Positions 8,335-17,054 of a stretch of 57,680 nucleotides of DNA are shown here, piece by piece. Source of the DNA: Bacteroidota bacterium. Its GTDB lineage: Bacteria > Bacteroidota > Ignavibacteria > Kryptoniales > JAKASW01. Both the position numbers and the translations under genes were made by a program. The DNA lies in contig JAKAMG010000022.1 in the NCBI GenBank assembly GCA_021812985.1, positions 4,835 through 62,514 of the forward strand, in the 5' to 3' direction. Every line of letters begins with the position of its first letter. Position 1 is the stretch's first letter. A model generated the notes under the pieces. That model was not told the DNA's origin. It did not search any database and saw only the letters and a program-made list of their open reading frames with translations.

Positions 8335-8721
8335 GTGCGCGTAACAGAAAAGGCTACAAACGTCGTGATAGCGGCGCAGGATTTCAGGGTGGCCGGTCTT
8401 ATAGAGGAGTACCTCCAGCGGATCGGCTATGAGGTTCACTGCGAATACAACCTTGACGCGGCTCTTGAGCAGCTTTTGAAGTCACGCACGGATCTTCTCA
8501 TAGTCGATGGCGAAATGCCTGAGAAGGTGCTTGGAAACTTCGTGGAGGCCGTGGCGAGCGTGAGGCCTGGCGTGCCGATGATTGCGGTTGGAATATCTGA
8601 ACATGAGACGGTGAGCAAAGAGCTCTCTTCCCATATTTCTGCGTTTGTTGAAAAACCGTTTAGTATTTCCGATATTTCAGACTCAATCAAGGCTACACTC
8701 CGCGCATGTACGCCGAAGTAA
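8335..8721 (+). CDS. Stand-alone receiver-domain protein with degenerate acidic pocket
   Basis: A 128-residue single-domain CheY-like protein. The start is GTG 8335 with TAGGA four bases upstream. The phospho-acceptor Asp in LLIVDGEMP and the conserved Lys in VEKPFS are present. The acidic pair after strand 1 that normally binds Mg2+ is replaced (IAAQDF where a DD pair is expected), and the usual Thr/Ser at the end of strand 4 falls in AVGISE. It has no output domain. The altered pocket suggests phosphorylation-independent or weakly phosphorylated signalling. It sits 74 bases before a STAS-domain gene on the same strand, so the two may form a small signalling module. The partner kinase is unknown. 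Confidence 0.8.
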   Translation: MRVTEKATNVVIAAQDFRVAGLIEEYLQRIGYEVHCEYNLDAALEQLLKSRTDLLIVDGEMPEKVLGNFVEAVASVRPGVPMIAVGISEHETVSKELSSHISAFVEKPFSISDISDSIKATLRACTPK

Positions 8722-8795
8722 GCGCGTGAATAACCGGCACGCCAGCGTGAGACTTTGCGTGTAGCAAAGGAACATTAAACCAAAGAGAGGAGAAT

Positions 8796-9149
8796 ATGGC
8801 GTTAAAAGTATCGAAGCTTGCCGACGGCGAAATCGCCGTGCTCGAGCCGAAAGGAGAGTTGATCGGCGGAGAAGAAACCGACGAGCTCCGTTCTGAAGTC
8901 ACCAAATTATCCGCCGATGGTAACAAGAAGCTGGTGGTCGATCTTGGCAAGACCACTTACTTGAACAGTACCGCCATCGGAGTGCTGATATGGGCGCACA
9001 CGCATTACGCGAAGAACGGGGGCGAGGTAAAACTGGCGAACCTGAACAAGAACATCAAGAACATCTTTGTCGTCACGAAGCTCACGATGGTGTTCGATGT
9101 TCGAGACACTCAGCTTGACGCGGTCGCCAGTTTTTCAAAAGAGAAATAA
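8796..9149 (+). CDS. STAS-domain protein, anti-sigma-factor-antagonist type
   Basis: A 117-residue protein of the SpoIIAA/RsbV family. These bind anti-sigma serine kinases and are switched by phosphorylation of a conserved serine. That serine is present in the motif YLNSTAIGVLIWA at about residue 60. A strong AGAGGAG site precedes ATG 8796. No anti-sigma kinase or phosphatase is visible nearby. The next gene, 55 bases on, is exbB/tolQ, so it is either the first gene of the Ton-like operon or a regulator placed beside it. A structural role in the envelope complex is possible but speculative. Confidence 0.88.
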   Translation: MALKVSKLADGEIAVLEPKGELIGGEETDELRSEVTKLSADGNKKLVVDLGKTTYLNSTAIGVLIWAHTHYAKNGGEVKLANLNKNIKNIFVVTKLTMVFDVRDTQLDAVASFSKEK

Positions 9150-9204: not shown

Positions 9205-9933
9205 ATGAAACAAGGCTTGTTCGCGACGATCCTAATCATCGTTGCTTTTGCCATTGCTTACGTCGTTTATTCCTACTTTCTACCCGACTTCATCACAAAG
9301 GGCGGACCCCTCGTTATCCTTCTCATAATGCTGTCCATCATGGTCTTCACATACGTGTTCGAGCGCATCTTCTCTCTCCGCAAGGCGCAGGGAAAAGGCT
9401 CCCTCACAAAGTTCCTCAAGGACGTTGAAGATCAGTTGAACAATGGCGACATCAATGCCGCCATCGAAGTTTGCAACAAGCAGAGAGGCTCGATGGCCAA
9501 CGTTATTCGCAATGGCCTCGAGAGGTATCAGGAAGTCCTGAAAGACAGCCATGTCGAGGCTGAGAAGTATATGTCTGAAGTACAGCGCGCCATCGAAGAA
9601 GCCACGATGCTTGAGACCCCGCTTCTCGAGAAGAACCTTATCGTTCTCTCGACGATCTCTTCCATCGCCACCATGGTCGGACTGCTCGGAACGGTTATCG
9701 GTATGATTCGCGCGTTCCAGGCTCTCGCACACGCGGGCGCTCCGGACGCCATCCAGCTTTCGGTCGGTATCTCCGAAGCCCTTATCAATACGGCCGGTGG
9801 ACTTATCGCTGCAATCACCGGTATCGTCGCTTACAACTTCTTCGTCAACAAGGTTGATACATTCACATACATGATCGACGAAGCGACTTCCAGCATCATC
9901 GCGATTTTGAACGCACGCAAATTTGACAAGTAA
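9205..9933 (+). CDS. exbB: ExbB/TolQ/MotA-family proton channel subunit
   Basis: A 242-residue inner-membrane protein of the proton channel that powers TonB- or Tol-type energy transfer. The start is ATG 9205, with AAAAGGAGG at 9185-9193; an in-frame TTG at 9196 would leave only two bases of spacing. Hydrophobic segments lie at about residues 6-28 and 33-52. A cytoplasmic helical domain with many charges follows (about 55-145). The conserved channel helices come next (LIVLSTISSIATMVGLLGTVIGMI and the ISEALINTAGGLIAAITGIVAYNFF region). The extra N-terminal hydrophobic segment is typical of Bacteroidota-type ExbB. It heads a tight operon with two exbD genes and tonB. Confidence 0.93.
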   Translation: MKQGLFATILIIVAFAIAYVVYSYFLPDFITKGGPLVILLIMLSIMVFTYVFERIFSLRKAQGKGSLTKFLKDVEDQLNNGDINAAIEVCNKQRGSMANVIRNGLERYQEVLKDSHVEAEKYMSEVQRAIEEATMLETPLLEKNLIVLSTISSIATMVGLLGTVIGMIRAFQALAHAGAPDAIQLSVGISEALINTAGGLIAAITGIVAYNFFVNKVDTFTYMIDEATSSIIAILNARKFDK

Positions 9934-9959
9934 GCAACCGCTTTAAAGGAGCATAGCAA

Positions 9960-10481
9960 ATGCCAAAAATCAAGAAAAGACGCCAGGCCGTCAGGATTGA
10001 CATGACGCCCATGGTGGACGTTGCCATGCTGCTTCTGACATTCTTCATGATGACGACCCAATTCAAGCCGCCGCAGACAGTTGATATAACGCTTCCTACG
10101 TCGGACAAAGGGCCGAAACTGCCTGAAAGCGGTGTGCTTACAATCAGCATCGACAAGGCTGGACAAATATTCATGGGAGTGGATCAGCAGCAAATAATGA
10201 GAGCGGTCTTCGAGCCGATGTTCCCGAACGGCGTGCCGGACAAGAGCGGAAAGCTGGTTCCGGTATGGCTGATGCCGGCAGTGCCGGTTCAGGAGAAAGA
10301 TCTCGCACAACTTGTGGTGTCAGCACGTATCCAGAATATCCGTCTTATAACTGTTATCAAGGCCGATAAGGATGCGGAATATGGCCCGGTCATGGATGTC
10401 ATGAACGATCTCCAAAAGGCCCAAGTCTCGAGATTTAACCTTCAAACAGAACTCCGCGGCAGCGGTGGTAAGGAGGGCTGA
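9960..10481 (+). CDS. exbD: ExbD/TolR-family transport protein, first copy
   Basis: A 173-residue inner-membrane partner of ExbB. A basic cytoplasmic start (KIKKRRQAVRIDMTPMVDV) leads into one membrane helix (about residues 17-38) holding the channel Asp in TPMVDVAMLLLTFF, followed by a periplasmic domain. It has a good ribosome site (AAAGGAG) 27 bases after exbB. Relative to the second copy its periplasmic domain carries an insertion at about residues 80-120 (MRAVFEPMF to VPVQEKDL), so the two are not simple duplicates. It probably forms a heteromeric channel with the next gene product. Confidence 0.92.
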   Translation: MPKIKKRRQAVRIDMTPMVDVAMLLLTFFMMTTQFKPPQTVDITLPTSDKGPKLPESGVLTISIDKAGQIFMGVDQQQIMRAVFEPMFPNGVPDKSGKLVPVWLMPAVPVQEKDLAQLVVSARIQNIRLITVIKADKDAEYGPVMDVMNDLQKAQVSRFNLQTELRGSGGKEG

Positions 10482-10483
10482 AG

Positions 10484-10978
10484 ATGGCTGACGTACAAAC
10501 TGCCGAACCCCGCGGACACAAAAAAGGCGGGCGCAAAAAGAAGAGAAGGATTGCCGTACGCATCGACATGACGCCGATGGTGGACGTTGCATTCCTCCTC
10601 CTTACGTTCTTCATGCTCACGACGGCTTTCAGTCGTCCGCAGGCCATGGAAATCAACCTTCCTCCCTCGGACACGAAAGTCGAGATCGCGGCGTCTAACC
10701 TTATGACCCTCAGGGTCGCCGCCGACGGCTCGATTTACTGGAACGTCGGCACGGAGGCCCCAAAGAAGGTCGAGTGGAGCGATTTCCGAAATCTGATCAT
10801 CAATCAGAATAAGGCCAACTCTAGACTCGTTACTCTGATAAAGGTTGACCGCAAGGCGAAGTACCAGGACATGATTAACATCATTGATGAACTGAACCTC
10901 GATAACGTGACGCGCTTTAGTCTGGCGCCTATGACGCCTGAAGATCAGCAAGCGCTTGCAAAGGTGGGCGCGCAATGA
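10484..10978 (+). CDS. exbD: ExbD/TolR-family transport protein, second copy
   Basis: A 164-residue second ExbD that begins two bases after the stop of the first and is therefore translationally coupled. It has a very basic N-terminus (residues about 8-25 rich in Lys/Arg), then RIDMTPMVDVAFLLLTFFMLTTAF with the essential membrane Asp, and a periplasmic dimerisation domain. Two different ExbD proteins per operon are common in Bacteroidota Ton systems. Confidence 0.92.
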   Translation: MADVQTAEPRGHKKGGRKKKRRIAVRIDMTPMVDVAFLLLTFFMLTTAFSRPQAMEINLPPSDTKVEIAASNLMTLRVAADGSIYWNVGTEAPKKVEWSDFRNLIINQNKANSRLVTLIKVDRKAKYQDMINIIDELNLDNVTRFSLAPMTPEDQQALAKVGAQ

Positions 10979-10996
10979 AAAGGAGGTTGATCTAAC

Positions 10997-11743
10997 ATGG
11001 CTAAGAAAAAAGCGGCTGAAAACCCGGCTATGCCCGGGCAGTACGGTGCCCCCGTTCTGAAGCGTCTCGCACACAAGTACACCGGCGTCGGGATGGCGAT
11101 AGCAATTGGAGTCCATCTCATCGGTGTCGGCTCTTATTGGGGTGCGCAGTACCTTAACCGCGAGGACGACAACGCCCCCGTCGTACGGGTATTGAAGTAC
11201 AGCGAACTCGGACCGCCTCCTAGTATTACCAACCAGCAGGCTCTCCCGCAGGTCGCCGTGTCTGCTCCAATGGCCAAGCCGAACGTCGGCGTGCCCGTCC
11301 CGGTGCCTGACGCTGAGGTGTCGCCTGAGCAGACGATCGCCACTCAGCAGGAGTTGAGCAAGATCGCCGGCCCGATGACTCAGGGTTCAGGCGGCGACTC
11401 CGTAGGTGTTGCGATGGGCAACTTCAAGGTCCCCGAAGACGACGGACCACCCCCCGATTTCGTTCCGGTGGAGAAGGAACCCCAGATCGTTAAGCAGGTG
11501 ATGCCGAAGTATCCTGAACTCGCTCAGAGAGCAGGCATAGAAGGCAGAGTTATCGTGAAGATTTGGGTCGATAAGGACGGAAAGCCCCACAAGGCTATCG
11601 TTCTTAAGAGCGATGCAGAGATATTCAACCAGCCTGCGATTGACGCGGCGATGCAGTACAGGTTCACGCCCGCGATCATGAACAAGGGCCCGGTTGCTGT
11701 CTGGGTCGTGATTCCATTCACGTTCAAATTGAAACAGAACTAA
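10997..11743 (+). CDS. tonB: TonB-family energy transducer
   Basis: A 248-residue protein with an N-terminal cytoplasmic tail (about 32 residues), one membrane helix (about 33-52, GVGMAIAIGVHLIGVGSYW), a Pro/Val-rich periplasmic linker (about 65-150) and a C-terminal TonB domain (about 165-248). The last has the landmarks MPKYPELAQRAGIEGRVIV and MQYRFTPA. It should transmit proton-motive force from ExbB-ExbD to outer-membrane TonB-dependent receptors. The ribosome site AAAAGGAGG lies between exbD and the ATG. A strong terminator follows at 11782, so the canonical Ton part may end here, with only partial read-through to the lipoprotein genes. Confidence 0.94.
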   Translation: MAKKKAAENPAMPGQYGAPVLKRLAHKYTGVGMAIAIGVHLIGVGSYWGAQYLNREDDNAPVVRVLKYSELGPPPSITNQQALPQVAVSAPMAKPNVGVPVPVPDAEVSPEQTIATQQELSKIAGPMTQGSGGDSVGVAMGNFKVPEDDGPPPDFVPVEKEPQIVKQVMPKYPELAQRAGIEGRVIVKIWVDKDGKPHKAIVLKSDAEIFNQPAIDAAMQYRFTPAIMNKGPVAVWVVIPFTFKLKQN

Positions 11744-11781
11744 TTTCGGATTCGCTGCAGTAAGCGCGGCCGACAGTCTAC

Positions 11782-11822
11782 GAAGTGACGCGTCTCAAGA
11801 AGGCGCGTCACTTCTATTGTTT
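11782..11822 (+). terminator. Rho-independent terminator after tonB
   Basis: GAAGTGACGCG and CGCGTCACTTC form a perfect 11-bp stem around an 11-base loop, followed by a T-rich tail (TATTGTTT). It lies 39 bases after the tonB stop. Confidence 0.8.
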
Positions 11823-11874
11823 AAATCGCGCTTCCATCGGGTTCGGGTGGGAGTGAGTCCCCCCAAATTACCTA

Positions 11875-11904
11875 TTTGACTCCGTCCACGAAGGGTTTAA
11901 TTTG
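11875..11904 (+). promoter_or_regulatory. Weak candidate promoter for the 55-aa protein / PstS-like / TPR genes
   Basis: TTTG (11875-11878) and TTAATTTG (11897-11904) resemble the Bacteroidota consensus (TTTG, about 19 bases, TAnnTTTG) with one mismatch and 18-base spacing. It sits after the tonB terminator and before the next genes. This is the only such match I noticed, and it could be chance. Confidence 0.25.
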
Positions 11905-12020
11905 TAGCATGATCGTCGCGACGGATGCTTGAAATCCCGCCCGTATCAAAAGACGACATTTAGTACGCTCTGAATAGGAGGCTTTCGACGAACAATCTGT
12001 CAAAGTATATAGGATACTTT

Positions 12021-12188
12021 ATGTCCGCCGTCTTTTTTTTCGGCGGACTTTTTGTTATTTTTGGAACGTATTTCCAGAGAAGTCTGCCGGAGCAATTCAG
12101 GATCACTCTCGGAATAGTTCTACTGCTCTGGGGAATTTATCGGTACGTTATCACGCGGACCAAAGCAAGGCAAAATGGCGATCAGTAA
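12021..12188 (+). CDS. Small two-helix membrane protein (55 aa)
   Basis: A short ORF, easily missed, fills the gap between the tonB terminator and the PstS-like gene. It starts at ATG 12021 with AGGA six bases upstream. The first hydrophobic segment (MSAVFFFGGLFVIFG) is followed by a short polar turn (TYFQRSLPEQFR), a second hydrophobic segment (ITLGIVLLLWGIYRYVI) and a basic-polar tail. Its stop lies 14 bases inside the following lipoprotein gene in a different frame, which points to translational coupling. The frame also stays open upstream from an AGGAGG at about 11976-11981, so an earlier non-ATG start is possible. I do not recognise a family. Hydrophobicity pattern, ribosome site and coupling argue that it is real. 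Confidence 0.68.
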   Translation: MSAVFFFGGLFVIFGTYFQRSLPEQFRITLGIVLLLWGIYRYVITRTKARQNGDQ

Positions 12189-13140
12189 GAGGCTTTTCAT
12201 ATTTGGAGCCCTCCTGGCTCTGCTCGTTTCTTCGTGCAATCTGAAGAAGCGGGCGCCGGAAGCTTCCCCCACGGAAGGGAAGCTCGACGTGTATTGCGCC
12301 GAGTCTGTGTGGCCGGCCGTCACGAAGGCTGCAAACAAGTTTATGGAGCTCTATAACAAGGCCCACATAACGGTCCACGCAGTACCCACGAGGGTCGCTA
12401 TAGCCAAACTCCTCAACAATGAAGCCACAGTCGTGGTCACTTCCAGGTACTTCAACCGGGAAGAGCTTGATGTGATGAAGAAATACAACATTGAAGCTGA
12501 TTCCCTGAGAGTTGCGCTGGACGGTGTGGCGGTAATCGTTAATGCAAAGAATCACATCCCCCGGATGAGTATTGATCAGTTGAGGGATGTGTTTTCCGGT
12601 AAGACGAGGCTTTGGGGAAAGCTCTACCCTCCTTTCCAGGGAAGAATAATCCCTGCCCTGGAGAGCCCCAACTCCGGAACTCTTGAGTATTTTAAAGACA
12701 GGGTCCTTGGCCCTGAGAATTTTTCGGAAGCATACCCTTGCTCGACGATGTCGAACGTTTACACATTTGTCGGCAAGAATCGCGACGCAATAGGGCTGGT
12801 CAGTCTAAACTGGCTTAATTCAGGTCCGAACATCCTCCCCGCGAAGGAGTCTGCGCCGAGGGCAATCGAAATAGCAGAAGTTGACTCCACCAACATGAAG
12901 TACGTCGATCCTAATTCATTCGGAAGTTATTACTATCCTTATCAGGCGCATGTATATAGACATTATTATCCGCTGACACGTCCGATATATTTCCTCACCA
13001 GGAATCTTGATGACGGCTTGGGAGCCGGATTCTTGACGTTTGCCGCGAGCGCATCGGGTCAGCAAATTTTCCTTAACGACGGGCTTGTTCCGGCCACCAT
13101 GCCTGTGAGACTTGTTCAATTAAACGACCAACCACTATGA
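12175..13140 (+). CDS. PstS-like phosphate-binding-type periplasmic lipoprotein
   Basis: A 321-residue substrate-binding protein of the PstS/PBP-like family. The N-terminus is a lipoprotein signal with lipobox LVSSC, so it is membrane-anchored. The mature part shows the two-lobe binding fold: an early strand LDVYCAESVWPAV, the oxyanion-binding style segments VVTSRYFNREEL and ESPNSGTLEYF, and the C-terminal YPLTRPIYFLT typical of PstS relatives. No pstC, pstA or pstB genes are present. Instead it lies after a Ton system and overlaps a TPR gene by 4 bases. It might feed a Ton-energised uptake route or sense phosphate; the ligand itself is inferred, not shown. Confidence 0.82.
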   Translation: MAISKRLFIFGALLALLVSSCNLKKRAPEASPTEGKLDVYCAESVWPAVTKAANKFMELYNKAHITVHAVPTRVAIAKLLNNEATVVVTSRYFNREELDVMKKYNIEADSLRVALDGVAVIVNAKNHIPRMSIDQLRDVFSGKTRLWGKLYPPFQGRIIPALESPNSGTLEYFKDRVLGPENFSEAYPCSTMSNVYTFVGKNRDAIGLVSLNWLNSGPNILPAKESAPRAIEIAEVDSTNMKYVDPNSFGSYYYPYQAHVYRHYYPLTRPIYFLTRNLDDGLGAGFLTFAASASGQQIFLNDGLVPATMPVRLVQLNDQPL

Positions 13141-14834
13141 AGAAATTTGCCTTTCTAATATTTGTCATTGCCATCTCAGCCTTCAGCATGAGGGCCTATG
13201 CTCAAGACCCGCTCGACCAAGGGACTGCTCTTCTGCAGAAGAACGACTGTTCCGGCGCGCTCCCCTATCTAAAGAGAGCCGTCAGCGACAAGCCGAACTC
13301 GGAGAAGGCTAACCTCAACCTCGGCAGGGCATATCTTTGCCTGCAGAATCTTGACAGCGCCGAAATCTTTCTGAAGAAGGCCGTCTCAATAGATAATGAG
13401 CTTGCCCCGGCTTATTACGGGCTTGGCGAAATCTATCTCGCTAAGAAGAGCTATGCCGACGCCCTCACGAACTTCAATCAGGCGATTGCCAACGATTCGA
13501 AGAATGAAGAGTACGTGATCTCGCTCGGCAAGGCCTACATGGCGGCGGATTCACTTGACATGGCTATGCAGGCCTTTTACAAGGCCCGCGATATGAACGA
13601 CAAGGACGCCCGAGCGCTCGAAGGAATAGCCGACGTTTACAGAGCGCAGAATATCTATGATCCCGCGATCGAAAATTACAAGGACGCCCTCAAGATAGAT
13701 TCCACGAATATCAACGTGAGGCTGAAGCTCGCCAACACTTACCTCAAGAACAGCGACGGCGCGAACGCGTACGAGCAGTTCCTGAAGGTCTCCGAACTGG
13801 CCCCCAACAACCCCCAGGGGCAATATCAGGCCGGCGATCTCCTTTACGTCAACAAGAGGTATCGCGAAGCCTTCCCGTTCCTAAAGAAGTACCACGAGCT
13901 CGTGCCGAACGATATGAAGGTCCTTCTGGAGCTCGCGGACTGCGCGTCCAACGCCCATCTCTTCTCTGACGCGGTGAAGTATTATCAGGAATACCTGACG
14001 AAGAATCCGAACTCGATGGATGCAAAGAAAGCACTGGCCGCCTCGTACTATTTCGAGAAGCAGGCGACTGATTCCTACAACTTGTACAAGTCGATACCCA
14101 TCGATTCCATGAACGTGAGGGAGCTTGTCAGGTACGGCCTCGCAGCGAACGCCGTCCACGACACAAACACGACTATTGAGGCCTGGTCGAGAGCGGTAAA
14201 GATAGATACTTCGCTCTCCGAAATAGAATATTTCCTGGCGAACACGCTGTTCGCGGCAAAGCGGTACAACGAAGCAATTGCGCACTTCCAGCGCCGTCTC
14301 GCCCTCGATTCGACTGATGTGGCCGCAAGACTTAACATGGGACTCTGCTATTTCATCATACAGAATTTTCCGAGCGCGGTCTCGGCCTTGAGAACGGTGA
14401 CCATTCTGAAGCCAGACAGCTACCAGGGAACTCTCTGGCTTGCCCGCGCGCTGGTCTTTGATGATTCTCTCGAGAGCGCCAGCGACATTTACCAGGGATT
14501 CATAAAGATTGCACTCAGCGATACGACCGCCGATCATTCCGCGGATCTTAACGAGGGCTACAGGCAGATCGCCCTCGCCCAGATCATAAACGGAAGCAAG
14601 ATGTCGAAGGAACATCCGGACGACGCAAAGAAACAATACGAAGACGCGTTCAAGAATCTTCAAATCGCGCTCAAGTATGATTCCAAAGACTCTAAGACGC
14701 ATGCTTTGCTGGCACAGGACTATGCGTTGATGGGGAAGATAGACGATGCCTGCAAGGAAATTAAGATAGTCCTGAGGACTGATCCCGGCAACGACCAGAT
14801 GGTCAAGCTCAAAAAATCCCTGGGCTGCGAATAG
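13137..14834 (+). CDS. TPR-repeat protein, secreted
   Basis: A 565-residue protein whose ATG overlaps the stop of the preceding gene (ATGA), so the two are co-translated. It has a signal peptide of about 22 residues (cleavage near RAYAQ). The rest is almost entirely tetratricopeptide repeats, roughly ten to twelve 34-residue units with landmarks such as NLGRAYLCLQNLDSAEIFL, YYGLGEIYLAKKSYADAL and LNMGLCYFIIQNFPSAVSAL. TPR arrays are protein-binding scaffolds; located in the periplasm it could hold together the PstS-like lipoprotein and Ton components. A terminator hairpin follows. The partner is unknown. Confidence 0.88.
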   Translation: MKKFAFLIFVIAISAFSMRAYAQDPLDQGTALLQKNDCSGALPYLKRAVSDKPNSEKANLNLGRAYLCLQNLDSAEIFLKKAVSIDNELAPAYYGLGEIYLAKKSYADALTNFNQAIANDSKNEEYVISLGKAYMAADSLDMAMQAFYKARDMNDKDARALEGIADVYRAQNIYDPAIENYKDALKIDSTNINVRLKLANTYLKNSDGANAYEQFLKVSELAPNNPQGQYQAGDLLYVNKRYREAFPFLKKYHELVPNDMKVLLELADCASNAHLFSDAVKYYQEYLTKNPNSMDAKKALAASYYFEKQATDSYNLYKSIPIDSMNVRELVRYGLAANAVHDTNTTIEAWSRAVKIDTSLSEIEYFLANTLFAAKRYNEAIAHFQRRLALDSTDVAARLNMGLCYFIIQNFPSAVSALRTVTILKPDSYQGTLWLARALVFDDSLESASDIYQGFIKIALSDTTADHSADLNEGYRQIALAQIINGSKMSKEHPDDAKKQYEDAFKNLQIALKYDSKDSKTHALLAQDYALMGKIDDACKEIKIVLRTDPGNDQMVKLKKSLGCE

Positions 14835-14843
14835 TACAGCAAT

Positions 14844-14884
14844 GAGAAGCGGCGTGCCCCTCGTATGCACGCCTCTTCTTTATT
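14844..14884 (+). terminator. Terminator hairpin after the TPR gene
   Basis: AGAAG-C-GGCGTGC pairs with GCACGCC-T-CTTCT (12 pairs with one mismatch) around a 9-base loop, followed by TTATT. It covers an in-frame ATG at 14865 of the next ORF, which supports the downstream GTG as the real start of hppA. Confidence 0.65.
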
Positions 14885-14927
14885 CCATGGTTCAAAAACC
14901 CAAAAGCGAAAAGGAGGAAGGACGATA

Positions 14928-17054
14928 GTGGAATTAGCACTCATTCTATCGATCAGCGTGATTTCACTTTTGTTTGCGATTTATCTCGCGCTTCAGATCA
15001 TGAAGCAGGATCGTGGAACGCCCGAGATGCAGAAAATCGGTGATGCTATAAGGAAGGGAGCGGAGGCCTTTCTCAAGAGGCAGTATTCAACTATAGCGAT
15101 GCTCAGTGTAATCCTTGCAGCCATCATATTTGTGTTGTATGCGTTTGTCAGAACCCCGATGCCGAACGACCCCGTCGATCCTACTCGGCTCGCCTCTTAC
15201 ACCGCGCTTTCGTTTTTGTTCGGTGCGTTCTGTTCCGGCGTCGCGGGGTACATCGGAATGTTCGTCTCCATAAGGGCCAATTCGAGGACTGCCAGCGCCG
15301 CGCTGACTTCGCTCAATCGCGCCCTGCAGATATCGATGCGCGGGGGCGCCGTATCCGGACTCTTCGTCGTCGCGATGAGCCTCCTCGGAGTCGGCGGCCT
15401 CTTCGGCGTTCTGCAGCTGCTCGGCACGCCGGTAGACAAGATTCCCTTCATGATCGTAGGATTCGGCTTCGGTGCTTCCTTCGTCGCGCTGTTCGCTCAG
15501 CTTGGCGGAGGAATCTATACGAAGGCCGCGGACGTCGGAGCCGACCTCGTTGGTAAGGTCGAGGCGGGAATTCCCGAAGACGATCCGCGAAACCCGGCAG
15601 TCATAGCTGACCTCGTCGGCGACAACGTCGGCGACTGCGCGGGACGTGGCGCCGATCTCTTCGAATCGACGGCAGCTGAAAACATAGGTGCCATGATACT
15701 CGGTGTCGCCCTTTTCCCGTTCTTTGGGCTCAAGGGCATCATGTTTCCTCTCGTGGTCCGCGCATTCGGGCTCATCGCCTCTATCGTCGGTGTGATGTTC
15801 GTCCGCACGCGCGAAGACGCTGATCCGATGGCCGCGCTCAACAAAGGCTACTACGTGACCGCCTTCCTCGCGGCGATAGGATTCTTCATCGGAACCAAAT
15901 GGCTTCTCGACACGCCTTCAGCCCCCGACGCGTGGCTGCATTTCTTTGCCGCTGGCGTGATTGGAATAGTAACAAGCATTGCTTTCGTCTACATAACACA
16001 GTATTTCACGGAGTACCGTTACAGGCCCGTCAAATCGATAGCGGAGTCGTCCCAAACCGGACCGGCCACGAACATCATAACCGGTTTCGCCGTCGCTCTT
16101 GAGTCGACTTACCTTCCCGTCATCACTATATCGATAGCCATCGTTGCCTCATATTACCTCGGTCTGACGAGTGGCCTCCCCAATGCTGGGCTATACGGTA
16201 CGGCGGTAGCTACGATGGGTATGCTGGCGACGGCGGCATATATCCTCGCGATGGACACGTTCGGTCCGATCACAGACAACGCGGGCGGTATCGTCGAGAT
16301 GAGCCATCAGCCTGACAACGTCAGGGTAAAGACAGACCGCCTGGACGCAATCGGAAACACTACGAAGGCACTGACGAAGGGATACGCGATCGGCTCCGCC
16401 GCGCTCGCAGCGTTCCTTCTCTTCTCGGCATACATCGACGACGTCAACGCAATCCTGAAAGAGAAGGGGATGCCGGCAATGACATCTGTAAACATAGCGA
16501 AGCCTGAAGTCTTCGTCGGAGCCCTTCTCGGAGCGGCACTTGTGTTTCTCTTCAGCGCGCTTGCCATCAAGGCAGTCGGCAAGGCGGCATACTTCGTTAT
16601 TAACGACGTGCGTGCGCAGTTCAAAGAGAAGCCCGGAATCCTTCAGGGAACCGAAGAGCCAGATTACGGGCGCACAGTCGACATAGTTACCAGGGGCGCG
16701 CTCAAGAGCATGGTAGGCCCGGGCCTCCTTGCGATCGGCGTCCCCATCGGGGTCGGCATTATCTTCAAATGGTTCAACGTCGGCGCGGAGGCAGTCGCGG
16801 CCCTTTTGATGGTCGGCACGATCGCCGGCATCCTGATGGCGAATGTCCTCAACAACGGCGGCGGCGCGTGGGACAACGCGAAGAAATTCATTGAGACCGG
16901 AATGTACGGGGGCAAGAGAAGCGAGCCTCACAAGGCTGCGGTCGTCGGAGACACGGTCGGTGATCCTTTCAAAGACACAGCCGGTCCTTCGCTGCACGTT
17001 CTTATAAAACTCCTCGCCACCATAACCCTGGTGCTCGCCCCCCTGTTCATCTGA
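14928..17054 (+). CDS. hppA: Membrane-bound proton-translocating pyrophosphatase
   Basis: A 708-residue integral membrane pump that couples hydrolysis of pyrophosphate to ion export. The start is GTG 14928 with AAGGAGG at 14911-14917; an upstream in-frame ATG lies within a terminator. About 16 membrane helices are expected. The active-site signatures are present: YTKAADVGADLVGK, DDPRNPAVIADLVGDNVGD and the C-terminal GDTVGDPFKDTAGPS. In the diagnostic segment GNTTKALTKG, the position that is Ala in K+-dependent enzymes is Lys and the fourth position is Thr. This is the known signature of K+-independent, H+-pumping forms. It is flanked by terminators and therefore monocistronic. Confidence 0.95.
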   Translation: MELALILSISVISLLFAIYLALQIMKQDRGTPEMQKIGDAIRKGAEAFLKRQYSTIAMLSVILAAIIFVLYAFVRTPMPNDPVDPTRLASYTALSFLFGAFCSGVAGYIGMFVSIRANSRTASAALTSLNRALQISMRGGAVSGLFVVAMSLLGVGGLFGVLQLLGTPVDKIPFMIVGFGFGASFVALFAQLGGGIYTKAADVGADLVGKVEAGIPEDDPRNPAVIADLVGDNVGDCAGRGADLFESTAAENIGAMILGVALFPFFGLKGIMFPLVVRAFGLIASIVGVMFVRTREDADPMAALNKGYYVTAFLAAIGFFIGTKWLLDTPSAPDAWLHFFAAGVIGIVTSIAFVYITQYFTEYRYRPVKSIAESSQTGPATNIITGFAVALESTYLPVITISIAIVASYYLGLTSGLPNAGLYGTAVATMGMLATAAYILAMDTFGPITDNAGGIVEMSHQPDNVRVKTDRLDAIGNTTKALTKGYAIGSAALAAFLLFSAYIDDVNAILKEKGMPAMTSVNIAKPEVFVGALLGAALVFLFSALAIKAVGKAAYFVINDVRAQFKEKPGILQGTEEPDYGRTVDIVTRGALKSMVGPGLLAIGVPIGVGIIFKWFNVGAEAVAALLMVGTIAGILMANVLNNGGGAWDNAKKFIETGMYGGKRSEPHKAAVVGDTVGDPFKDTAGPSLHVLIKLLATITLVLAPLFI

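Follow-up and report, generated by a model that had tools for sequence, protein, structure and literature searches.

A conserved set of three genes accompanies the Ton motor of Bacteroidota and encodes a lipoprotein with a PstS fold

Organization of the locus

The window analysed here is a stretch of 57,680 nucleotides (nt) from a Bacteroidota bacterium (GenBank assembly GCA_021812985.1, contig JAKAMG010000022.1), and it carries a Ton-type energy transduction locus on its forward strand. The locus begins with the gene for ExbB, the motor proton channel of the MotA/TolQ/ExbB type (9205-9933, with an ATG start at 9205; PF01618, 2.2e-31), orthologues of which stand first at equivalent loci across the phylum. 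Two genes for ExbD follow (9960-10481, PF02472, 4.3e-28; 10484-10978, PF02472, 3.0e-28), and then the gene for TonB (10997-11743; PF03544, 7.8e-20), a protein with an N-terminal transmembrane (TM) segment apparent in its translation. The next three genes, together referred to as the trio, encode a small protein with two predicted TM segments, a lipoprotein with the fold of the phosphate-binding protein PstS, and a tetratricopeptide repeat (TPR) protein. The small gene spans 12021-12188 when read from an ATG (55 amino acids, aa) or 11988-12188 when read from an ACG at 11988 (probably 66 aa). The lipoprotein (12175-13140; lipobox SSC21) belongs to PBP_like_2 (PF12849, 4.4e-29) and to a ton-linked family whose members are called PBPs below. 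The TPR protein comprises 565 aa (13137-14834; TPR_19, 3.8e-40, in seven stretches), and a signal peptide (AYA-QD) was recognized in it by inspection.

A domain scan of ten proteins of the window region placed PF01618, PF02472 (twice) and PF03544 above their cut-offs on the same strand, which identifies a TonB-ExbB-ExbD energy transduction system. There is a single ExbB homologue at the locus, and nothing extra lies between the STAS gene upstream of exbB and the TPR gene. The small gene overlaps the lipoprotein gene by 14 nt, and the latter overlaps the TPR gene by 4 nt. The gene order, overlaps and domain types given in a preliminary description of this DNA were reproduced from the open reading frames and Pfam families, and the suggestion made there that the last three genes are made together is supported by the two overlaps, for those three genes only.

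Between the stop codon of tonB and the 55-aa reading frame lie 277 nt that hold a hairpin resembling a terminator (11782-11814, forward strand), with a 14-bp stem, a 5-nt loop and the U-rich tail TATTGTTT. Its free energy corresponds to z = -4.8, and none of 200 shuffled sequences was as stable. The hairpin occurs once in the genome, which rules out a dispersed repeat. Its form suggests that it acts like a terminator and, as it follows tonB, the trio is probably made as a separate or attenuated transcript in this species, being transcribed or tuned separately from tonB. Among related loci, the small gene lies within 20 nt of tonB in 52 of 88, and some loci of the same genus (L035, L040, L043) have a second tonB in the position of the gap.

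The two ExbDs of the locus are the only ones in the genome (99% complete assembly), and each of 11 genomes of the same genus that carry the locus contains exactly two. ExbB, the two ExbDs and TonB constitute the genome's only motor of the ExbBD type. The genome encodes TonB-dependent transporters, with 21 plug domains in all, and we infer that this one motor must serve all of them.

Conservation of the linkage between motor and trio

Within the genus, the order from a response regulator gene upstream to an H+-pyrophosphatase gene downstream is identical in every locus whose contig spans it. The order (STAS-)ExbB-ExbD-ExbD-TonB-small protein-PBP-TPR was found in most families of the class, with PBPs that share about 20-40% identity. 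Of 31 Bacteroidota families sampled, 21 encode TonB on the strand of the PBP and no more than 7 kb from it, and in 22 the TPR gene follows the PBP gene. These loci had been picked by their PBP, and the sample is therefore biased towards this PBP family. Seeding with ExbB gave a second, independent sample of 80 loci, 47 of them with full flanks, from taxa that include Kryptoniota, Ignavibacteria, Kapaibacterium, Hymenobacter, Pontibacter, Pedobacter, Flavobacterium, Saprospiraceae, Bacteroidales and Latescibacterota. A PBP was present in 34 of the 47 loci, downstream of exbB in 26 and upstream in 8.

The trio lies upstream of exbB in Bacteroidales (L174, L182, L183) and in Latescibacterota (L120, L123), and the PBPs of the two groups fall into separate regions of the tree described below. 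As the upstream order occurs in groups with separate tree positions, the linkage was kept through rearrangement, which gene-order inertia does not explain well. In two further families (f7, f14), TonB and the trio are encoded together and ExbBDD elsewhere. Judged from the sequences compared, the recurrence of this order across the phylum at 20-40% identity is far in excess of chance. In Bacteroidota and some related phyla, the trio is conserved as a companion of the Ton motor. The preliminary description had left room for an order limited to close relatives; recurrence throughout the class and phylum rules this out, and the linkage is real and wider than was claimed there.

Fold and phosphate site of the lipoprotein

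The AlphaFold model of the lipoprotein (pLDDT 93.3) returned phosphate-binding proteins as its top solved matches, the best of them being PDB code 4gd5 (Z = 31.8, root-mean-square deviation = 1.6, 240 residues, 21% identity). With 108.8 bits, however, the protein remains below the cut-off of the NCBI PstS model TIGR02136 (206.6 bits) and reaches about half of it. We compared the canonical phosphate loops of PstS (GS[DST]T, G[ST]xxG, SR and SGT) between 10 PstS proteins that are pst-linked or of solved structure and 96 ton-linked PBPs. In the window protein and its genus, these loops read CAES, P[ST]RVA, SR and NSGT. The GS of loop 1 is found in 10/10 of the pst-linked set and in 0/96 of the ton-linked proteins, in which the serine is replaced by aspartate in 71 cases and by alanine in 16. 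Loop 2 follows the same pattern, with G[ST] in 10/10 versus 1/96. The arginine of loop 3 is present in 10/10 versus 90/96, and the SGT of loop 4 in 10/10 versus 14/96. An acidic residue in loop 1 was considered as a family marker and dropped: half of the true PstS proteins also have an acidic residue at position 3 of the loop, and the marker was therefore restricted to the loss of GS.

In a maximum-likelihood tree, 12/12 reference PstS proteins (pst-linked, from the organism's own genome, and from E. coli) form a single branch with support of 100/99. The 61 ton-linked proteins lie outside this branch, three from non-Bacteroidota metagenome-assembled genomes (MAGs) being nearest to it. The lipoprotein lineage is separate from PstS and lacks the phosphate loops of the N-domain, so that it shares the fold of PstS but not its phosphate site. 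It resembles PstS (TIGR02136/PF12849; 4gd5) in its overall architecture and as an exported binding protein, and differs from it in loops 1 and 2, profile score, position in the tree and linkage to Ton genes. These differences suggest that the lipoprotein does not bind phosphate. The preliminary description had coupled a PstS-like lipoprotein and its ligand to a Ton-energised complex; that the Ton genes and the trio function jointly gains support from their conserved linkage, whereas phosphate as the ligand is not borne out, loops 1 and 2 being lost in 95-96 of the 96 proteins and the PstS cut-off being failed.

The genome provides for phosphate uptake elsewhere. Neither the window nor the contig of the locus (C57) contains pstC, pstA or pstB. 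A tblastn search of the window found neither a Pst permease nor a Pst ATPase, in agreement with the preliminary description, which had reported no ABC permease or ATPase for the binding protein. Permeases of the BPD type are absent from C57, and five are present in the whole genome. The lack of a permease also disposes of the idea that the trio serves a TonB-dependent transporter in the window as its ABC partner. A pstCA pair lies on contig C16, and two PstS genes with canonical motifs lie on C34, 3' of a porin-like gene; neither is paired with the lipoprotein, a pairing that the preliminary description had said would count against its reading. A plug domain of a TonB-dependent transporter is encoded about 4 kb past pstC-pstA on the same strand (G000:C16:9246-15194), and might possibly reflect TonB-dependent uptake of phosphate compounds. 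At one related locus (L052, 4402-12094), pstC-pstA-pstB and a further gene stand immediately 5' of TonB-small protein-PBP-TPR on one strand; its genome (G024) has a second PBP_like_2 protein elsewhere.

These data bear on ordinary phosphate uptake as the function, with the lipoprotein as an orphan PstS that works in trans for PstCAB and lies near the Ton genes by chance or by way of TonB-dependent import of phosphate esters. The weak similarity to TIGR02136, the pstCA pair of the genome and the pstCAB genes next to the trio in G024 are consistent with it. The two PstS genes already present, the lost loops, the fully supported branch of pst-linked PstS and the low score argue against it, and led us to reject an orphan PstS that serves PstCAB; ordinary phosphate uptake is a very improbable function of this protein.

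A different small ligand is the main rival explanation. Here the lipoprotein would bind a non-phosphate ligand delivered by TonB-dependent transporters and pass it on, or report it, to the Ton complex, the TPR protein serving as scaffold, a variant of the preliminary idea with another ligand. The high-confidence model shows an intact fold, the linkage to Ton genes is conserved, and a pocket may remain, since the loop-3 arginine and the aspartate of an A-x-D-G/A motif (91/96) are mostly retained; the sequences leave room for a ligand other than phosphate. However, the pocket loops differ among lineages and show no new invariant set except for a largely acidic loop 1. A cognate permease is linked nowhere except at L052, and the genome concerned has another PstS-type protein. 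We consider such a relay or sensor unlikely.

The small membrane protein

Orthologues of the small protein are encoded in nearly all of the loci and share an invariant arginine within the motif LYGxYR. Two helices (residues 2-18 and 24-53) are predicted by a model of low confidence. The protein is present in 51 of 148 sampled genomes, in single copy in 50, and by comparison of coordinates its gene adjoins the PBP gene in about 42 of the 51. The two genes overlap or are at most 20 nt apart in 85/97 loci. When searched against Pfam and NCBIfam (E 0.01), the small protein of the window matched no model, and other members gave scattered weak matches to unrelated membrane families. The protein therefore seems to represent an unnamed family and to mark the locus. 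Translation probably starts at the ACG at 11988, giving 66 aa: this codon is preceded by a perfect AGGAGG with a spacing of 6 nt (11976-11990), and ACG-AAC-AA is conserved in five species, with an ATG or GTG nearby in other relatives.

A model for the trio

The trio has kept its place next to the motor throughout a superphylum and is therefore probably a working part of that motor. We therefore lean, with some reservation, towards a locus that encodes the housekeeping Ton machine together with three dedicated accessory subunits. The small protein would be placed next to the motor in the inner membrane, and the lipoprotein would be anchored at the periplasmic face of a membrane, its two-lobed fold having turned from phosphate capture to a module for protein-protein contacts or sensing. 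The TPR solenoid, plausibly a scaffold by analogy with Vibrio TtpD2, could link the lipoprotein to TonB or to periplasmic parts of the transporters. Assembled and located in this way, the trio might hold TonB in position or act as its gate, enabling the motor to energise the outer-membrane transporters.

Such a role would resemble that of the accessory Ttp proteins of the Vibrio TonB2 system, played by different parts. There, too, a Ton operon encodes extra subunits, among them a TPR protein whose gene directly follows those of the motor. Transport by TonB2 depends on this TPR protein, TtpD2, which in V. vulnificus is encoded at the end of the tonB2 operon; TtpD2 and Vibrio TtpB2 are both essential (PMC6957404). 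TtpD2 is essential for TonB2-dependent siderophore uptake, and its likeness to the protein described here lies in the type of repeat and the position of the gene. In contrast, neither a PstS-fold lipoprotein nor a protein with two TM segments has been described in the Vibrio system, TtpB and TtpC, the fourth protein of the Vibrio complex, have no counterpart at the present locus, and two ExbDs are encoded here.

Our literature searches for the trio returned no paper, and an earlier description may nevertheless exist. The adjacency of Ton genes and a binding protein has been noted in one paper on Riemerella, whose relevant passages make no mention of the small protein, the TPR protein or a role for the binding protein (PMC4446302). 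Judged from the description there, the TonB2 locus of R. anatipestifer is probably the same locus in Flavobacteriia. Loss of tonB2 reduces hemin uptake and impairs iron-limited growth, and in E. coli the four cloned genes of the TonB2 complex, which do not include the trio, failed to energise the native receptor (PMC4446302). Loss of exbD2 in F. psychrophilum impairs iron-limited growth (as cited in PMC9331221). In B. thetaiotaomicron, BT2664-68, which encode a substrate-binding protein, ExbDs and ExbB, show a joint 2.7- to 3.1-fold drop on iron depletion (PMC10434189).

Several observations weigh against dedicated accessory subunits. In about one in four of the loci found through ExbB, among them all five of the Chlorobium type, the motor has no trio nearby, and a Ton motor can therefore manage without it. 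Three families (f23, f25, f38) have PBPs of the ton family at sites apart from Ton genes, and in the genome studied here the terminator-like hairpin separates tonB from the trio. Causes other than a missing trio could also explain why TonB2 of R. anatipestifer fails in E. coli. In the three families with PBPs away from Ton genes (L080, L088, L101-L103), some of the PBPs are arranged in tandem, and those of L088 and L101 stand beside two permease-like genes.

The arrangement also recalls Tol-Pal, as the order of motor, transducer, lipoprotein and TPR protein is similar to tolQRA-tolB-pal-cpoB. The locus might accordingly be an envelope-tethering motor in which the lipoprotein and TPR protein replace Pal/TolB and CpoB. 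The genome has no other motor of this kind, TolB_N has no match in this genome and is found in just 1 of 61 relatives searched, and no identifiable tol-pal loci have been reported in Bacteroidetes (PMC12204202). Yet nearly all relatives lack TolB, those with the trio as well as those without it, so that there is no mutual exclusion; a strict replacement argued from such exclusion was abandoned, as the readings are not separated by it. The transducer is of the TonB type rather than TolA and is needed by 21 transporters, and the phenotypes of Riemerella tonB2 mutants concern iron and hemin (PMC4446302). The lipoprotein has a PstS-like fold, no TolB is encoded at the locus, the ten scanned proteins contain no Pal or OmpA-like domain, and the domain scan revealed no peptidoglycan-binding domain in the trio. 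A substitute for Tol-Pal is accordingly highly improbable.

A more far-reaching version of the accessory-subunit model, which we hold to be doubtful, comprises at least seven kinds of subunit. The former phosphate-binding lipoprotein, the TPR protein and the two-TM protein would act together in the periplasm as a gate or force-sensing stator that times the pull of TonB, and possibly also take over envelope tethering from the absent Tol-Pal system, in Bacteroidota and related phyla.

TonB-dependent uptake, including SusCD glycan import, feeds gut and marine Bacteroidota, and its energisation is known mainly from the three-protein complex of E. coli. If the trio does belong to the motor, the Ton machine of Bacteroidota has parts that are missing from current models, the present annotation of such genes as phosphate-binding proteins is wrong, and reconstitutions with ExbBDD-TonB only may have missed subunits.

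Flanking genes

Upstream of exbB, genes for a response-regulator domain and a STAS protein (8335-9149) are kept throughout the genus, and a STAS gene is found 5' of exbB in many other families of the class. A role in regulating the motor is possible. Directly downstream of the locus lies the gene for an H+-pyrophosphatase (14865-17054), as it does in all loci of the genus that are long enough, placing a proton pump next to a proton-driven motor. H+-pyrophosphatases with 43-46% identity are also encoded 3' of ExbBDD-TonB in MAGs of Latescibacterota, Gemmatimonadota and Zixibacteria (L120, L121, L123, L129).

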